Source of the DNA: Phycisphaeraceae bacterium | GTDB lineage: Bacteria; Planctomycetota; Phycisphaerae; Phycisphaerales; SM1A02 | Assembly: GCA_004213555.1 (NCBI GenBank) | Contig: SHAP01000005.1 | Coordinates: 1 to 64,000 of the forward strand | Direction: 5' to 3' | DNA: 64,000 bases | Shown: one piece after another, positions 11,265 through 18,779 of the stretch | How the letters are laid out: each line of letters opens with the position of its first letter | How positions within the stretch are numbered: position 1 is the stretch's first letter | Made by a program: the position numbers and the translations under genes | Notes under the pieces: model-generated | The model's input: the letters and a program-made list of their open reading frames with translations, nothing else | What the model was told of the DNA's origin: nothing | The model's database searches: none

Positions 11265-13259
11265 TTACTCGTCGTCGTATTCGTCGTACTCGTCCTCATC
11301 AAAGTCATACTCGTCGGCAAAACCTGGCTGGGCGCCATTGGCCAGCCACGCGGCAATGGCATCAAATTGCGCGGTGGCGTTCCCATCCAAGATGTCGGGA
11401 CGGACTGCTTTGCCCGTGACTGGGTCGGCGTAGCGTGGCATTCGGGTTGATGGCGTGATTCGCAGGGGATCGTCCATCCAGCGGTGGTACCACCCAGGAC
11501 GAAGGCGTTCGGCAGACAGGGCAAAGTTCACCCCCACGGCTTCAAAGGCTGCCATTGGAGGTTCGTCGCCCACCCCATGGCACGTGATGCATCCATAGCC
11601 CTCGAGGCCAACCAGCATTCGGCCCACTGTGGCGTCGGCTTCTTCAGTTGCCGCGAAGGCCTCCTCTTGGGGCATGCCATGCTCAGCGACCAGTGAAGTG
11701 GTCAGCGGCTCCGCCCACGCTCCAAATCCTGGCATTCTGGCGTGCATCCAAGGCCGAACCTCTTGGGTGCGGTTGCCGGCCAAGGTCTTCAGCAAATGTG
11801 CTGTCCGCAACTTTTCTCCCGTGCCGTCAAGATGGGGCAGTGTTTGGTCCACTTCGGGAGCGTGGGGATCGGCGAGGAGGGCTGGATCCACATCAAGGCC
11901 TCGACCTTCGCCGAGGGAAGCTTGGCCGTCTCGCGCGTGGCAAGACGTACAGCGCAGACTGTTGACCGCACGGGCGGCAAAGCCAAAGTTGGTCGGTGCG
12001 GTGGTGGACGCGAGCGCCTCAAAGGTTTGATTGATCGCAGATTGCTCGGAAGGGCTCAGCCGGAAGTCTGGACTTGAGTTGGCAACGTTCGCCAAGCAGC
12101 CGTTCATTTCAATCTGTGGCGTGGTGGGCAGGGGCAAACTGGGAACGGGCGGCGCATCGGATTGATGGCAATTGCCACAGCGCAGGGTGGCCGCCAGGGC
12201 TTCGCCCCGGACCACATTTCCAGTGACTCCTGCACCTTGGCCGGGCACTGCTTCTCGCAGGAAGGCTTCCAAATCCGCGGCTTCTTGCTCGGACAAGCGG
12301 AAGTCTGGCATCTTGGACCATGGTGATCTGGCATGGGGAGCACGAAGGAAATCGGCCAACGCGCCGGGTTGGTACTTTTGGCTTACCCCGGCCAGGGAGA
12401 TGCCGTCGTAGTCTTCCTCAGGTTCGAGCACGTGGCAGTTCAGGCACTGCAGTTTCGCAGCCAAGACTTTGCCGTCTTGCGCGCGTCCTTCGATGGCTTT
12501 CATTGACCCTGAACCCATCGAGACCACCCATGCGGCGAGGTCTGCCGCATCTTGCTCTGCGTTGGGACCAGAAAGCAGGGCGGGCATGGGGGTGTCGGCT
12601 CGGTGGGCCGACGGATTCAGCAACCATTCTTGCACCCAACGCCCGTGCAAACGTTGCCCGGCATCCCGCAGCGAGCCGGCGGGGCGGTCAAGATCGGAGA
12701 CGAATGTCGACGCTTTGGACGCATGACAGGCGGTACAGCGGTGTTCTGCGATCAGCTCGAGGCCGAGTTCGATGTTGTCGTGGACGGTGTCGGGCGAAAG
12801 CTGTTGGGTTGGAATGGGCTCCAGGCTGAAGTCCCTCCCGTCCCAGAGCAGCCGAATCCAAGCCGGGCCTTCGCTTGGGGGCGTCCACTTCAGATTGATG
12901 GAGCGGCTCCCCTTGTTCAGGCGAAGCTGTTTGGTTTGCAACGTGGATTCCAAAGCACCATCTAGGACCGCTTCTCCGTCGATCGAGAGCACGGCTGACC
13001 CGGTGCCGCGAAGCGCCAGTTCGGCTCGGGTTCGGATTGGCAAGTTGAGGGTTCCAGAAAACACACCCGTCCAGCCAGTGGGGGCGATCCCGATTGCCGG
13101 TGACTCTCCCGCTTCCACTCTGGCGGCAAACAGGCGGGTTGGCATGTCCCGCTGGCTGGCTCCATCCGAAAAGGAGACCGTGACACCCGACGGAGCTTGG
13201 GGTTCCGAAATGTTGGAACCGAAGTTCAATCCGATGGCCAAGAGCAGGGTGGAAAACAT
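11265..13259 (-). CDS. Secreted pentaheme cytochrome c-like protein with PA14-like N-terminus
   Basis: 664 residues. A short signal peptide (MFSTLLLAIGLNFGSN) is followed by a beta-rich domain (about 25-155) of the PA14 type (GTGSAVLSIDGEAVL, RLLWDGRDF). Five CxxCH haem motifs follow: CTACH, CLNCH, CGNCH, CTSCH and CITCH. A sixth position reads CLANV and has lost its haem ligands, which suggests decay of one cytochrome unit. The tail is extremely acidic (DEYDFDEDEYDEYDDE). Probably a periplasmic or surface electron carrier; such proteins in planctomycetes occur with DUF1080/propeller proteins, as here. It starts seven bases after the 13266 gene ends, so they form one operon. Confidence 0.85.
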   Translation of the reverse strand: MFSTLLLAIGLNFGSNISEPQAPSGVTVSFSDGASQRDMPTRLFAARVEAGESPAIGIAPTGWTGVFSGTLNLPIRTRAELALRGTGSAVLSIDGEAVLDGALESTLQTKQLRLNKGSRSINLKWTPPSEGPAWIRLLWDGRDFSLEPIPTQQLSPDTVHDNIELGLELIAEHRCTACHASKASTFVSDLDRPAGSLRDAGQRLHGRWVQEWLLNPSAHRADTPMPALLSGPNAEQDAADLAAWVVSMGSGSMKAIEGRAQDGKVLAAKLQCLNCHVLEPEEDYDGISLAGVSQKYQPGALADFLRAPHARSPWSKMPDFRLSEQEAADLEAFLREAVPGQGAGVTGNVVRGEALAATLRCGNCHQSDAPPVPSLPLPTTPQIEMNGCLANVANSSPDFRLSPSEQSAINQTFEALASTTAPTNFGFAARAVNSLRCTSCHARDGQASLGEGRGLDVDPALLADPHAPEVDQTLPHLDGTGEKLRTAHLLKTLAGNRTQEVRPWMHARMPGFGAWAEPLTTSLVAEHGMPQEEAFAATEEADATVGRMLVGLEGYGCITCHGVGDEPPMAAFEAVGVNFALSAERLRPGWYHRWMDDPLRITPSTRMPRYADPVTGKAVRPDILDGNATAQFDAIAAWLANGAQPGFADEYDFDEDEYDEYDDE

Positions 13260-13265
13260 TGGGGG

Positions 13266-16196
13266 TTAATTTGTACCCAACTCGTGGACGGTGTTCCAGA
13301 TGTCGGTGATGATGACGTCCCCGTCGGTGCTTTCTAAGTCGCATTGCACGTGCATTTGCATGACTGGCTGCATGTTCTTGAGCTTCAGGTGCACGGTTTT
13401 TCCATCCTCAAGAAGCGTGGCGGACTCGACAACCATTTCGTCGTGCTCTTCAACTTGGATTTCTTTTTTCTTGGCCAGTTCAATTTGTCCAACATCGGGG
13501 TTGAGGGCAGAGACTTCTGGTGACCCATACATGGGGCCCCAGACGTAGTCCCAACAATTGACGGCCCATGAACCGGTGTCCTCGGCCAGTTCTCGATCGA
13601 GGTTCACGGAAAAGGAGATCTTGACCCCATCTTTCACCGCGGTGATTGAGGTTGGGTTCTTGGGGGTACGGCCCGTCCAACGCACCCGTTGGAACGCGGT
13701 GAGACGCGCGGCGTTGGTTTGCCAACCTTTCAGGCCGCACACCCAGAGCTGTCCATCGGTGGGGTGAAAGCGACCGCGCATGGCCGAGGAGCCAAGCTGG
13801 ACGGGGACTCGGAAGACGCCGCCCTGGACTTGCCCGTTGACTTCTTCTTTCATCACGCGGTAGATGGAACTTTGGCCGTATGACAGGTGAAGAAGTTCAC
13901 CGGTCCAAGGCCATTGGCTTGAGGTCACCCATGTTTGCCCACCGGAGGAGTTGTCGACGCTCATGGGGAACCAGCACAGCGGCTTGTTGTAGTCCGTTGG
14001 CGTTTCGGGTTGGTGGGCCAATGGCACCACACCCTGGAAGGATCCGGGGGACATCCAGTGCAATTTGCAGTGGGGGCACCACGTACCTTCGTTGTCACCC
14101 GCGGTGACAATTTTTCCGTCGGGGGAGATGCCGATGCCGTTCGGGGCTCGAAGTCCGGTGGAGAACACTTCAAGATCTCTGCCGCTCTTGTCCACTTTGA
14201 TCACGGTGCCGTGATGTTCGTTCAGGCTGTCTTCGAATCCACGTCCTCCATCACGAACGGGACCAGCTTTTCCAAACCAGAAGTTGCCCTCGCCATCCAC
14301 TTGCAGATCAAAAGCAAAGTCATGGAACGAAGGCGTGGTGTAGACAAGATTGCAGAAGTTGTCGTACAGGTCGGCTTCGCCGTCATTGTTGAAGTCGATC
14401 AAGCGAGTGATTTGGTCTTTGCCGTGCACGAAAATTTGGCCGTCACGAACCGCCAGGCCCAAGGTCTCAAAAAGGCCAGAGGCGAACCTCTTCCACCGGA
14501 TGTCTTTCATTTCTAGGAGACCTGTGACAAGCCAGACATCGCCATTCCACGTGCACACGGCCGCGGTGTTGTCATCGACAAAGTCGAATCCACCAATGCG
14601 CATGTACGAATTCCACGGGTTCTCAAAGGGCACCGGGATGTCGTCCACGACAAAAGTCTCGTTGCCGTTTTCTGCAACCTTGGCTTGGACGATGACCTCT
14701 TCGGGATAGATCGGCGGGAACAGGGCAGGATCCGGTTGGCTTCCCGCGAACATCCGAGTGAACAGACGCTTCGGGATGGGAGCAGATGCAAGGACGCTGG
14801 GTTTGATCTGCTCTCGGGTGGCGGCGATGCCGATCATGATCGAACCCGAAGGGCCGTCGACGGTGGGGTCGATGTTCATCACCAAGGACTTCCCCGAAAT
14901 TTCAAAGGTGGAGTTGGTGCTGCCACGGATGGCAAATCTCGTGTCACCGACCCGTGCTCCTCGTCCATCAGAAAGAACCTTGATGCGTTGTCTTCGGGTG
15001 GCGTCGGCCACACGGAGTTGCATGCTTTCGGGTTCCGCAGCGGGAAAGATTTCCAGCGTACGCACCAGCACATCGCCGCCCTCGGATTGCTCGACTCCGT
15101 GGTGTTCGAGCACTCGGGTTTGTCCCACGGTGTAGTTCAAGATGCACTCGTCACCCACTCGCATCAGTCCGCCCCACCGAGCCATCTCAGGAGGAAGTGG
15201 TCCCCAGGGCTTGCTGGGGCGGGGATCTTCCCAAGAGCCGTTCACTTTCCATCCTGGACCTTCCAAGCTGCCGTACATGGGGGTGCCAACCGCTCCGGGA
15301 TGGCCACCATGGCTTCCGTTGTAGGAGACCCCTTCCCAGTCCAAGCCGCCTTGCCACACAGCGCCTACCCGCAGCAGGCCGGTGTCGAAAGACGCGACCC
15401 ATCCGTCTTCGAGGAACATGTTCAGCCCCTTGTTGGCGGTGGCGTAGTCCATGGAGTAGGCCGTGGCACAGGAAACAAACGGACCGTGGTCCATTCGGTT
15501 CCACCATTCGCTCTCGGGGACGTCTTGGGTGGTGAGTCGGGCATCAAGACGTTCAGCCCGAGTCATGTCTTTGGGGTCAAGATGACGGGCTTTGATGAAT
15601 TTGTATTCGACCACGCTGTTGGGATCATGAGCTTGGATGGCAAAGGTGCCTTCCGAGAGTCGCTTTCTCCCCTTGCGGTTTTTGGGTTCCCACCAATCCA
15701 CCACGACTTGGTTGTCGATGCTGGTTTGGATATGCCGTCCGGCCACCCGGATGCGTAACTTGACCCAGTCGCCATCGACATGGGGGGGCATGTTGTTGTT
15801 CACGATTCCATACAAGGAACACGTCTTGATGCTGTCTCCGTGGGTCGCGTTGACTTGGCATTCGTATCCAACATCAGGCCAGCCAGATTTCTGGAACTTG
15901 GTGTGGAAAAAGACACCACTGTTCGCGCCAGGCTGGGTCCGCACCATGGCTTCAAATTCAAAGTCGTCCCACTTGCGACCTACGCCGTCTTTCCCAGACC
16001 AAAAAAGGTGGCCGCGTTCACCGTTGACCCTCAGGGTTTCGTCTTCCACTGTGAAGGCTTTCGGGTTTTCAGCGGCCCGCCAGCCGTCCAGGGAGCTGCC
16101 ATCAAAAAGAGTCACCCAATCGCCGGCCGTCGCGACGGTGGTCAGGAGCAGAACAGAAAGGAAGGCGTAATGCATGGGTTTACTACTCGGCGTCAT
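13266..16196 (-). CDS. Secreted DUF1080 and beta-propeller protein
   Basis: 976 residues. A signal peptide near the start (YAFLSVLLLTTVATAGDW) precedes a DUF1080 (3-keto-disaccharide hydrolase-like, jelly-roll) domain at about 27-210: WVTLFDGSSLDGWRA, GANSGVFFHTKF, VDWWEPKNRKG. The middle (about 215-480) resembles the DUF6797-type region seen with DUF1080 in planctomycetes (WWNRMDHGPFVSC). The last part is a six- or seven-bladed propeller like sorbosone dehydrogenases (LRAPNGIGISPDGKIVTAGD). Probably acts on oxidised sugars outside the cytoplasm. ATG 16196 overlaps the stop of the preceding gene as ATGA; ATG 16175 is an alternative start. Confidence 0.85.
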   Translation of the reverse strand: MTPSSKPMHYAFLSVLLLTTVATAGDWVTLFDGSSLDGWRAAENPKAFTVEDETLRVNGERGHLFWSGKDGVGRKWDDFEFEAMVRTQPGANSGVFFHTKFQKSGWPDVGYECQVNATHGDSIKTCSLYGIVNNNMPPHVDGDWVKLRIRVAGRHIQTSIDNQVVVDWWEPKNRKGRKRLSEGTFAIQAHDPNSVVEYKFIKARHLDPKDMTRAERLDARLTTQDVPESEWWNRMDHGPFVSCATAYSMDYATANKGLNMFLEDGWVASFDTGLLRVGAVWQGGLDWEGVSYNGSHGGHPGAVGTPMYGSLEGPGWKVNGSWEDPRPSKPWGPLPPEMARWGGLMRVGDECILNYTVGQTRVLEHHGVEQSEGGDVLVRTLEIFPAAEPESMQLRVADATRRQRIKVLSDGRGARVGDTRFAIRGSTNSTFEISGKSLVMNIDPTVDGPSGSIMIGIAATREQIKPSVLASAPIPKRLFTRMFAGSQPDPALFPPIYPEEVIVQAKVAENGNETFVVDDIPVPFENPWNSYMRIGGFDFVDDNTAAVCTWNGDVWLVTGLLEMKDIRWKRFASGLFETLGLAVRDGQIFVHGKDQITRLIDFNNDGEADLYDNFCNLVYTTPSFHDFAFDLQVDGEGNFWFGKAGPVRDGGRGFEDSLNEHHGTVIKVDKSGRDLEVFSTGLRAPNGIGISPDGKIVTAGDNEGTWCPHCKLHWMSPGSFQGVVPLAHQPETPTDYNKPLCWFPMSVDNSSGGQTWVTSSQWPWTGELLHLSYGQSSIYRVMKEEVNGQVQGGVFRVPVQLGSSAMRGRFHPTDGQLWVCGLKGWQTNAARLTAFQRVRWTGRTPKNPTSITAVKDGVKISFSVNLDRELAEDTGSWAVNCWDYVWGPMYGSPEVSALNPDVGQIELAKKKEIQVEEHDEMVVESATLLEDGKTVHLKLKNMQPVMQMHVQCDLESTDGDVIITDIWNTVHELGTN

Positions 16197-16531
16197 GGTT
16201 GTTGGTGGGTGTTGTTGAAGGCAGACGGTGGCGCAGTTTGGGTTCGGGCCAGTTCGATAATGCCAGTGATCTCGGGATCGGTCAGATTCACAGTGGTGGC
16301 TTCGACGGCCTCTTTTATGGCTTGATGAAGGTCGGCGTCACCTGCCGACATGAGGTCGGCGCGAATCAGCAATTCGCCAAGTGAATTGGCCTCTTGTTCA
16401 GAGCGCCCAAGCTTTTGTTCCAAAAGATCTCCAGCCGCTCGGGCCATTTGGGTGGCCTGCTGAAATCGCAGCGCATCTTCGTGGACGAACTTCTCATGGA
16501 AGCCTGTGCTTTGATGTTGTGCGTCCAGCAT
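16193..16531 (-). CDS. DUF1476 (ATPase inhibitor subunit zeta)-like protein
   Basis: 112 residues, almost all helix, no signal. The first part, FHEKFVHEDALRFQQATQMA, matches the pattern of the alphaproteobacterial F1Fo-ATPase inhibitor zeta (F-x-x-KF-x-H-x-x-x-LRF). It is followed by a conserved-looking LEQKLGRSEQEANSLGELLI helix and a third helix starting ADLHQAIKEAV, in the same order and length as DUF1476. In Paracoccus zeta blocks ATP hydrolysis by binding F1. Here it heads the operon with the DUF1080 and pentaheme genes, and no ATPase genes are near, so its target is unknown. CTGGAG lies eight bases before ATG 16531. Confidence 0.65.
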   Translation of the reverse strand: MLDAQHQSTGFHEKFVHEDALRFQQATQMARAAGDLLEQKLGRSEQEANSLGELLIRADLMSAGDADLHQAIKEAVEATTVNLTDPEITGIIELARTQTAPPSAFNNTHQQP

Positions 16532-16632
16532 TGATGCTTCTCCAGCCCCTCGGATTCGGGTTGTTGATCGTACTCGGATCCCGACGCCATGTGACGGAAT
16601 CGGTCAGGCAGTGAATGCTTCGTGGTGCGGGT

Positions 16633-16794
16633 TCAGCCCCAAGCGGCCAAGATGGCCACGAGATCGTTGAACTCGACGGCCCCGTCTCCGTTGACATCTC
16701 CAACATCACCGGTGCCCCAGTTGGAGAGGACAATCAACACGTCAAACAGACCGACCATGCCGTCCCCGTTCAAGTCTTCGGGCGGTCCAGGCGG
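16633..16794 (-). other. Out-of-frame dockerin-like module downstream of the GH13 gene
   Basis: A 53-codon stretch in a different frame from the GH13 gene reads GPPEDLNGDGMVGLFDVLIV and then DVNGDGAVEFNDLVAILAAW, ending G-stop at 16633. This is a two-motif dockerin-like calcium-binding module like those ending the 39408 and 52068 proteins. It has no start of its own. One added C (or two fewer) in the C10 tract at 16802-16793 would join it in frame to the GH13 enzyme. Confidence 0.85.
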
Positions 16795-18641
16795 GGGGGG
16801 GGAGGGGGTGGAGGATTGCCAACTTGTGAAAAAATCAAACAGGTGTAGGGCCCAATACCGATCTCCGCCGATTGTCCCAGACCGTCATAGGGGATGGCGT
16901 CGGTGGTGATGTCATACCCGGGATGGTTGCCGTAGTCCTCCCCGTAGTTGGTGCTGTCGGAATTGAAAATGACTTTCCATTCTCCCGAGCGCGGGAAGCC
17001 GATGCGGTAGTTGCTCCACGATTGGTCGCGAAAATTCATCACCACGAGCACATCGTCTCCAGGCCCACCGTCCTGAAAGCGGTGAAAACCGACCAGTTTG
17101 TCGTTGTTGTTGACATGGAAGAAGTTGATGTTTGGCCCAGTCAAACCACGACTGTTTCCATTGAGGTTGCGTCGCAAGGCGATGAGATCTCGGTGCAGCT
17201 CGAACACGCCTTGGAACGTTTCTTTCTTGGACCAATCCAAGGCGATTGAGTCGCGAAAATATTCATCCTCCAAGAATTCCTGTCCTTGGAAAATCATGGG
17301 TACGCCTGGAGCAGTCATAACCAAAGCTCCACCGAGCGTTGAGCGTTTCCTTGAGAAGTAACTGCCAGCATTTCCTGGCCAGATGGTTTCAGGCACCCGT
17401 GAACGGCCATTGGCCACTTCGTCATGGTTTTCGGTGAACAGCACCCGTTGGACGGGATCGCCGTTGTAGGCAAAGTTGACAGCGTCGTGCACCGCCCACA
17501 TGTTTCGGTCGTCGTCGTTCGCCGCTTCGATGGCGTTGCGGACGGGCCAATGGAAATTGGGGTCCCACTGGCTGTCAAAACCTGCACCACCTTGCGAGGT
17601 TGGTCGGGTCATGCCCCACTCGCTGTAGCCATCTTCGGCCACGATGATTTTTTCGGGGCTTTGTCCGTCAACACTGTTGTTGAGGTACTGAAGCCAGCTC
17701 CAGCCGTCAGGGTTGTCTTGGACATCTCCACCGCCGAGATCAGCGCCGGTTCTTCTGATCCAAGCGGTGCCGTCTACCCGAAGTCCATCGATGTGCATGC
17801 CGTTGAGAAAGTACATCGCGCTTTCGACGAGATACTCACGAACTTCGTTGCGGCCAAAGTCGGGACGCGTGTCCCCCCACGGGGTCGCGCCACGATCGTC
17901 GTTGTAGAAGTAAATGCCACCCCATTCACCTTGCGACCATCCATCAAACCTCCAGATGCCGAGATCAGATGGCCCCAGGTGGTTGTACACCACGTCGAGC
18001 AACACCGCGATCCCACGCTCGTGGCAAGCATTCACGAATCGCTGCAGCCCACGCATGCCCCCGTAGGACTCTTCTACCGCGAAAACATGTCCTGGGTTGT
18101 AGCCCCACGAAAGGCCGCCTGCAAATTCGTTGACAGGCATCAGCTCCACGGCATTGATGCCAAGCTCCACCAAATGGTCAAGACGAGCGATGGCTTGATC
18201 AAACGTGTTGGGGGGGCTGCCGCCAGGAAAGGTGCCGAGATGCATCTCGTAAATCACCAGTTCATTCCAGTTGTCTATTTGGAACGATTGATCGGTCCAA
18301 GCAAAATCGGAAGGATCCATCAGGATGGAGTTGCCCACACTGTTGACCATCTCCTTGGCCCAAGGATCAGGCCGCCAATTGACCCCGCTGTTGACCACCA
18401 CGAACTTGTATTGGTCTCCGGCTTCTGGACCCGAGATCCCCCCCTCCCACCAACCGTTGGCGCTGGAGGACAGCACGTTGGCGTTGAGGTTCCAACCGTT
18501 GAAGTCACCCACCACGCGGACTGAGCTGGCAAACGGAGCCCAGACCCGGGCGTACGCTCCTCCAGAGACCAGCTCGAGGCCATTGGCCGACAGCACGGAA
18601 GTGAGAGCCGATGCAACCAAGCAGCAGAGGGATCGCTTCAT
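16770..18641 (-). CDS. Secreted GH13 alpha-amylase/branching-enzyme-like protein, frameshifted at the C-terminus
   Basis: 623 residues as read. Signal peptide MKRSLCCLVASALTSVLSA; CBM48-like domain (about 28-105: ARVWAPFASSVRVVGDFNGW); then the GH13 (beta/alpha)8 barrel. Catalytic landmarks: GIAVLLDVVYNHLG (region I), DGLRVDGTAWI (nucleophile Asp), KIIVAEDGY (acid Glu), LFTENHDE (region IV His-Asp). A C-terminal beta domain follows. The layout is that of glycogen branching enzymes and trehalohydrolases, but secreted. The frame runs through PPPPPPPR and stops after RLDRPKT because of a C10 tract; one more C restores a dockerin. TATGGT lies six bases before ATG 18641. Confidence 0.85.
   Translation of the reverse strand: MKRSLCCLVASALTSVLSANGLELVSGGAYARVWAPFASSVRVVGDFNGWNLNANVLSSSANGWWEGGISGPEAGDQYKFVVVNSGVNWRPDPWAKEMVNSVGNSILMDPSDFAWTDQSFQIDNWNELVIYEMHLGTFPGGSPPNTFDQAIARLDHLVELGINAVELMPVNEFAGGLSWGYNPGHVFAVEESYGGMRGLQRFVNACHERGIAVLLDVVYNHLGPSDLGIWRFDGWSQGEWGGIYFYNDDRGATPWGDTRPDFGRNEVREYLVESAMYFLNGMHIDGLRVDGTAWIRRTGADLGGGDVQDNPDGWSWLQYLNNSVDGQSPEKIIVAEDGYSEWGMTRPTSQGGAGFDSQWDPNFHWPVRNAIEAANDDDRNMWAVHDAVNFAYNGDPVQRVLFTENHDEVANGRSRVPETIWPGNAGSYFSRKRSTLGGALVMTAPGVPMIFQGQEFLEDEYFRDSIALDWSKKETFQGVFELHRDLIALRRNLNGNSRGLTGPNINFFHVNNNDKLVGFHRFQDGGPGDDVLVVMNFRDQSWSNYRIGFPRSGEWKVIFNSDSTNYGEDYGNHPGYDITTDAIPYDGLGQSAEIGIGPYTCLIFSQVGNPPPPPPPRLDRPKT
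16793..16802 (-). repeat. C10 homopolymer at the GH13/dockerin junction
   Basis: Ten C in a row on the coding strand, with a C5 run next to it. The tract sits in a proline-rich linker, exactly where the frame is lost. It could be a sequencing or assembly error, or a slippage site. Confidence 0.95.
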
Positions 18642-18647
18642 GCTTCC

Positions 18648-18653
18648 ACCATA
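18648..18653 (-). promoter_or_regulatory. -10 element (TATGGT) six bases before the GH13 start
   Basis: TATGGT-N6-ATG, the predicted leaderless arrangement. GGTGG between the two could also act as a very close ribosome binding site. Confidence 0.4.
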
Positions 18654-18779
18654 AACCGGGGATGGCACTGGGCCTGCGATTCTTCACATTTCAGTCGGAA
18701 AAACGTCCATCGGTGTCGAATAACACATCCTTTACGTCGTATTTTCCAAACTCAGAGCGACTCCTGCATACTACATGGC

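Follow-up and report, generated by a model that had tools for sequence, protein, structure and literature searches.

A divergent zeta-family (DUF1476) protein heads a DUF1080 and multihaem cytochrome operon in a planctomycete whose order also carries canonical zetas

The closest described systems are the zeta subunits of Paracoccus denitrificans (2ll0, 2mdz and 5dn6) and Sinorhizobium meliloti (7vkv), which are analogous to mitochondrial IF1, known from the literature as a unidirectional inhibitor of the F1-ATPase, although zeta and IF1 are reported to be non-homologous (PMC9317440). A continuous N-terminal helix is the shape associated with the inhibitory form of zeta (PMC10469736), and one study of Paracoccus reports that deletion of zeta was insufficient to activate ATP hydrolysis (PMC5795051). 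Alphaproteobacteria encode zeta away from their atp operons (PMC9317440), and the family has been called essentially exclusive to these bacteria, hits elsewhere being regarded as truncated pseudogenes (PMC9317440, PMC10469736).

We analysed a stretch of 64,000 nucleotides, here called the window (contig SHAP01000005.1, positions 1 to 64,000), from a Phycisphaeraceae bacterium with a genome of 2.01 Mb that is 91% complete (G000). On the minus strand, open reading frames and profile matches define a zeta-like (PF07345/DUF1476) coding sequence of 112 amino acids at 16193..16531, with its ATG at 16531, a TGA ending at 16193 and a GGAG 8 nt 5' of the start codon. The initial annotation had proposed a zeta homologue in a planctomycete and a search with the DUF1476 model as a check, and this search gave a significant match (Pfam PF07345, ATPase inhibitor subunit zeta; 36.8 bits, E 5.7e-9, against a curated cut-off of 25 bits). 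A model built from 60 alphaproteobacterial zetas only scored the three proteins of the window's genus at 34.9, 42.1 and 37.1 bits, and the highest score among 9000 shuffles was 14.1 bits; profile-profile alignment of the genus with alphaproteobacterial zetas (hhalign) returned 97.7% and E 2e-12. Reciprocal profiles agree: one made from the three genus proteins alone placed the three solved zeta proteins at the top of 177,635 PDB sequences (7vkv, E 1.8e-6; 2ll0, equivalent to 5dn6 and 2mdz, 1.1e-5; 2kzc, 0.0058) and, when run on 181 genomes of the family, matched 41 other genomes and hit the canonical zeta ORF in 40 of them. Searches of NCBIfam and PHROGs gave no useful match. The motif KF-x-H-x-x-x-LRF, on which the first identification had drawn, is seen as K14-F-V-H-E-D-A-L-R-F23 (KFVHEDALRF, residues 14-23), and the likeness in length and colinearity claimed at the same time also holds, the protein sharing with the Paracoccus and Sinorhizobium zetas its length, about 95 residues that align almost without gaps, the KFxHxxxLxF motif, the G/D signature and the predicted helix order. 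Two other species of the genus (G159 and G160) have the gene at the same place, before the same DUF1080 gene, and a fourth genome (G158, 78% complete) has neither gene. Since the locus is shared by these species and dN/dS is 0.22 for G000 and G160 and 0.17 and 0.31 for the other two pairs, the ORF is a real gene, and it is under purifying selection. A search of the G000 genome found no further copy, and the window ORF codes for a genuine zeta-family protein that is present once in this genome.

The predicted fold is compatible with the four-helix zeta fold (2ll0/7vkv) and is not decisive. A model from the genus sequences only has four helices (residues 10-41, 45-61, 65-78 and 85-99; pLDDT 72), and its comparison with the PDB returned no zeta among the matches listed. 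A model with 48 zetas in its alignment (pLDDT 80), which is not independent of the homology evidence, placed 7vkv, 2kzc and 2ll0 at ranks 1-3 of 350,542 chains, but with E-values of 0.18-1.2. This deep-alignment model also predicts a continuous N-terminal helix over residues 3-41.

A survey of planctomycete homologues and their neighbours, likewise proposed in the initial annotation, found PF07345 in 58 of the 181 genomes of the window's family. Of these, 55 lie outside the window's genus, with best matches per genome of 92-134 bits, and eight further genomes from two other families in the order sample also carry zeta, giving 66 genomes in the order. In a phylum sample of 392 genomes the carriers were members of this order only. 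The published restriction of zeta to alphaproteobacteria is contradicted by these genomes, and in the literature collection searched we found no paper joining zeta with planctomycetes. The gene is patchy in the family, even within genera. The canonical planctomycete proteins (for example those of G226, G142 and G177) share with the window protein their family and, as a rule, their presence as one copy per genome, but differ from it in their profile scores, in keeping the N-terminal inhibitory segment and W36, and in being encoded by scattered single genes with varied neighbours, which include an ECF sigma factor and kinase, an MFS transporter, and FtsH with a DUF4011 helicase. F23, W36, D59, D67 and V68 are kept in 52/52 canonical planctomycete zetas and R7 in 96%. 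Because the inhibitory N-terminal segment and the core residues are kept, these proteins would be expected to act as in Paracoccus, with the N-terminal helix inserted as a wedge at the alphaDP/betaDP/gamma interface, so that F1 rotation is blocked in the ATP-hydrolysis direction only.

Some individual loci deserve mention. The canonical gene lies within a one-contig genome of 4.6 Mb in G226 and inside a 4.1-Mb contig in G216. In G226 and G201 (another family of the order) it is flanked by an FtsH-like gene on one side and a DUF4011/MTES_1575 helicase-nuclease gene on the other, and in G111 (contig C458; 2870-3181 and 5917-6066) a second, truncated copy stands next to an intact one. A candidate synteny between the window's genus and G040, resting on a DUF1501 gene near zeta, was rejected: the DUF1501 copy adjacent to zeta in G040 is paralogous, about 43 kb separates zeta from the probable orthologue on that contig, and there is little other correspondence.

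In phylogenetic trees, which are based on about 107 columns and are poorly resolved, the planctomycete zetas form a few groups interspersed with the alphaproteobacterial sequences, with the window's genus on a very long branch, and a constraint placing all canonical planctomycete zetas in one clade was not rejected (p-AU 0.465). These placements suggest that alphaproteobacteria are the likely source of zeta in the order, through one or a few transfers followed by retention or loss. Both the number of transfers and, since no root was inferred, their direction are presumed. Of the two possibilities first offered, transfer or a wider family, each holds in part, the family being widespread but patchy in the order and entry from alphaproteobacteria being its most likely source.

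The three proteins of the window's genus diverge strongly. Among 31 near-invariant positions, each at least 90% conserved in alphaproteobacterial zetas, eight are kept in all three (M1, K14, F23, G34, G42, D59, G64 and D67); R7, E12, R29, N30, W36, Y51 and D75 are lost, and in the inhibitory segment formed by the first 14 residues F4, R7 and E12 are gone and K14 remains. Identity between the window protein and canonical zetas is about 14-26%. Unlike the Paracoccus and Sinorhizobium proteins, the window zeta belongs to a planctomycete host and lacks R7, R29, N30, W36, Y51 and D75, residues that are kept in most of the 52 canonical planctomycete zetas (W36 in all). Within the genus, zeta identity is 59%, as compared with 91% for epsilon, 95% for gamma, 98% for alpha and 98-99% for beta. 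Among other genomes zeta (47%) is better conserved than epsilon (39%), and between the genus and other genomes zeta falls to 23% with epsilon at 38%. Since the identities of epsilon, beta, alpha and gamma stay high, the F1 partner subunits did not change along with zeta, and these comparisons indicate that the acceleration in the genus is specific to zeta, with F1 alpha, beta, gamma and epsilon conserved.

All four of these F1 subunits are encoded in G000, on contigs C8 (alpha, near the a subunit), C11 (beta), C14 (gamma) and C2 (epsilon), with zeta on C10, and an F1 target is therefore available. As first reported, ATPase genes are absent among the genes examined around the zeta-like gene. 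The hint of another role drawn from this absence is weak: because alphaproteobacterial zetas also lie outside atp operons (PMC9317440), a likeness to the window gene, and because the F1 genes are dispersed, an ATPase role is not made less likely by the missing ATPase neighbours. A stronger pointer to a changed role is that the genus has lost most near-invariant zeta residues alongside a conserved F1. An epsilon lacking its C-terminal domain was also considered as an indicator of zeta and rejected; PF00401 above cut-off is absent in 181/181 family genomes, zeta present or not, most epsilons examined in full keep their C-terminal tail, and the trait does not discriminate.

On balance we lean towards the reading that the window protein is a zeta whose contact with F1 has been loosened or altered, a broad statement that overlaps with its rivals. 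Against it, the step from lost residues to a changed role is indirect, and new F1 contacts could keep inhibition; the Paracoccus deletion result (PMC5795051) likewise weighs against it.

The gene neighbourhood bears on a further reading. In line with the initial annotation, the zeta-like gene is the first of an operon with a DUF1080/propeller and a pentaheme protein. The second gene (13266..16196, minus strand) encodes a protein of 976 amino acids with DUF1080 (3keto-disac_hyd), DUF6797 and SMP-30/propeller-like regions, as defined by Pfam and ORF analysis, and with a hydrophobic N-terminal stretch resembling a signal peptide. The two genes share 4 bp (16193-16196, ATGA) where its start codon meets the stop codon of the zeta-like gene, an overlap present in G000 and G160 and replaced by a short gap in G159. 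After 6 bp follows a multihaem cytochrome c-like protein of 664 amino acids with five CxxCH motifs (11265..13259, minus strand). Upstream of the zeta-like ATG, a block kept in three species (16564..16605, minus strand; CCGATTCCGTCACA...CGGGATCCGAGTACGATC) is a probable promoter or operator. Further upstream, the reading frame of an alpha-amylase/CBM48 gene (16770-18668) stops at a tract of ten C (region 16770-16810), and the DxNGDG-type (dockerin-like) repeats of its C-terminal tail are encoded beyond it in a different frame; the tail is in frame in G159, and the break may reflect either a frameshift from an assembly error or a phase-variable tract. G160 has another gene upstream of the zeta-like gene, likewise ending in a dockerin-like tail.

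Its fixed place in an operon beside DUF1080 and haem genes sets the window zeta apart from the Paracoccus and Sinorhizobium systems, and the protein may have left F1 altogether, its scaffold serving the DUF1080/propeller and cytochrome operon, perhaps as a partner or regulator in the cytosol. The pair is fixed in all three genus genomes holding either gene, two of them with the 4-bp overlap, the DUF1080/DUF6797 partner in the operon's form is specific to the genus, other genomes matching mainly the propeller half, and zeta evolution is accelerated. We nevertheless hold this to be unlikely, if possible, since the partner proteins look exported and zeta shows no signal peptide, and no known zeta serves such an operon. 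The more specific version, in which zeta parted from the ATP synthase and was co-opted by these genes as a small regulator or partner, we regard as tentative and somewhat more doubtful still.

About equally doubtful to us is the reading that the protein is still a full unidirectional F1-ATPase inhibitor, its sequence having drifted and its F1 contacts having been re-made. The retention of KFxHxxxLxF, G34, D59, G64 and D67, the complete F1 of a genome with no second zeta copy, and the continuous helix 3-41 of the deep-alignment model, a shape tied to the inhibitory form (PMC10469736), would fit full inhibition; the seven lost residues named above, and alpha, beta and gamma subunits without matching divergence, argue against it.

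Decay towards loss is improbable. The gene is patchy in the family and within genera, and its dN/dS of 0.17-0.31 exceeds the 0.065 of the neighbouring gene, as would be seen in a gene on its way out, but it is intact in three species with conserved start and length, and third-position changes are in excess (22/21/52 differences by codon position between G000 and G160). Chance similarity or alphaproteobacterial contamination, conceivable for small helical proteins from many draft assemblies, deserves next to no credence and was ruled out by the shuffles and agreeing reciprocal profiles, by the shared locus in three species, and by canonical zetas in a one-contig genome and on other long contigs with planctomycete-type neighbours (ECF-sigma/kinase, DUF1501).

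Under the preferred reading of a loosened or altered contact with F1, the zeta of the window's genus would have come to head an operon with predicted-exported DUF1080/propeller and multihaem proteins and would be made together with them, acting as a brake that is no more than weak or is regulated in another way. Should recruitment to the DUF1080/cytochrome operon prove true, the family would gain its first known role outside the ATPase. That intact zetas are widespread in a planctomycete order overturns the alphaproteobacterial exclusivity on which published arguments about how mitochondrial ATPase regulation arose are built (PMC9317440, PMC10469736), and the occurrence of canonical and fast-diverging copies alongside F1 of similar conservation provides a natural experiment on the residues that the brake requires.
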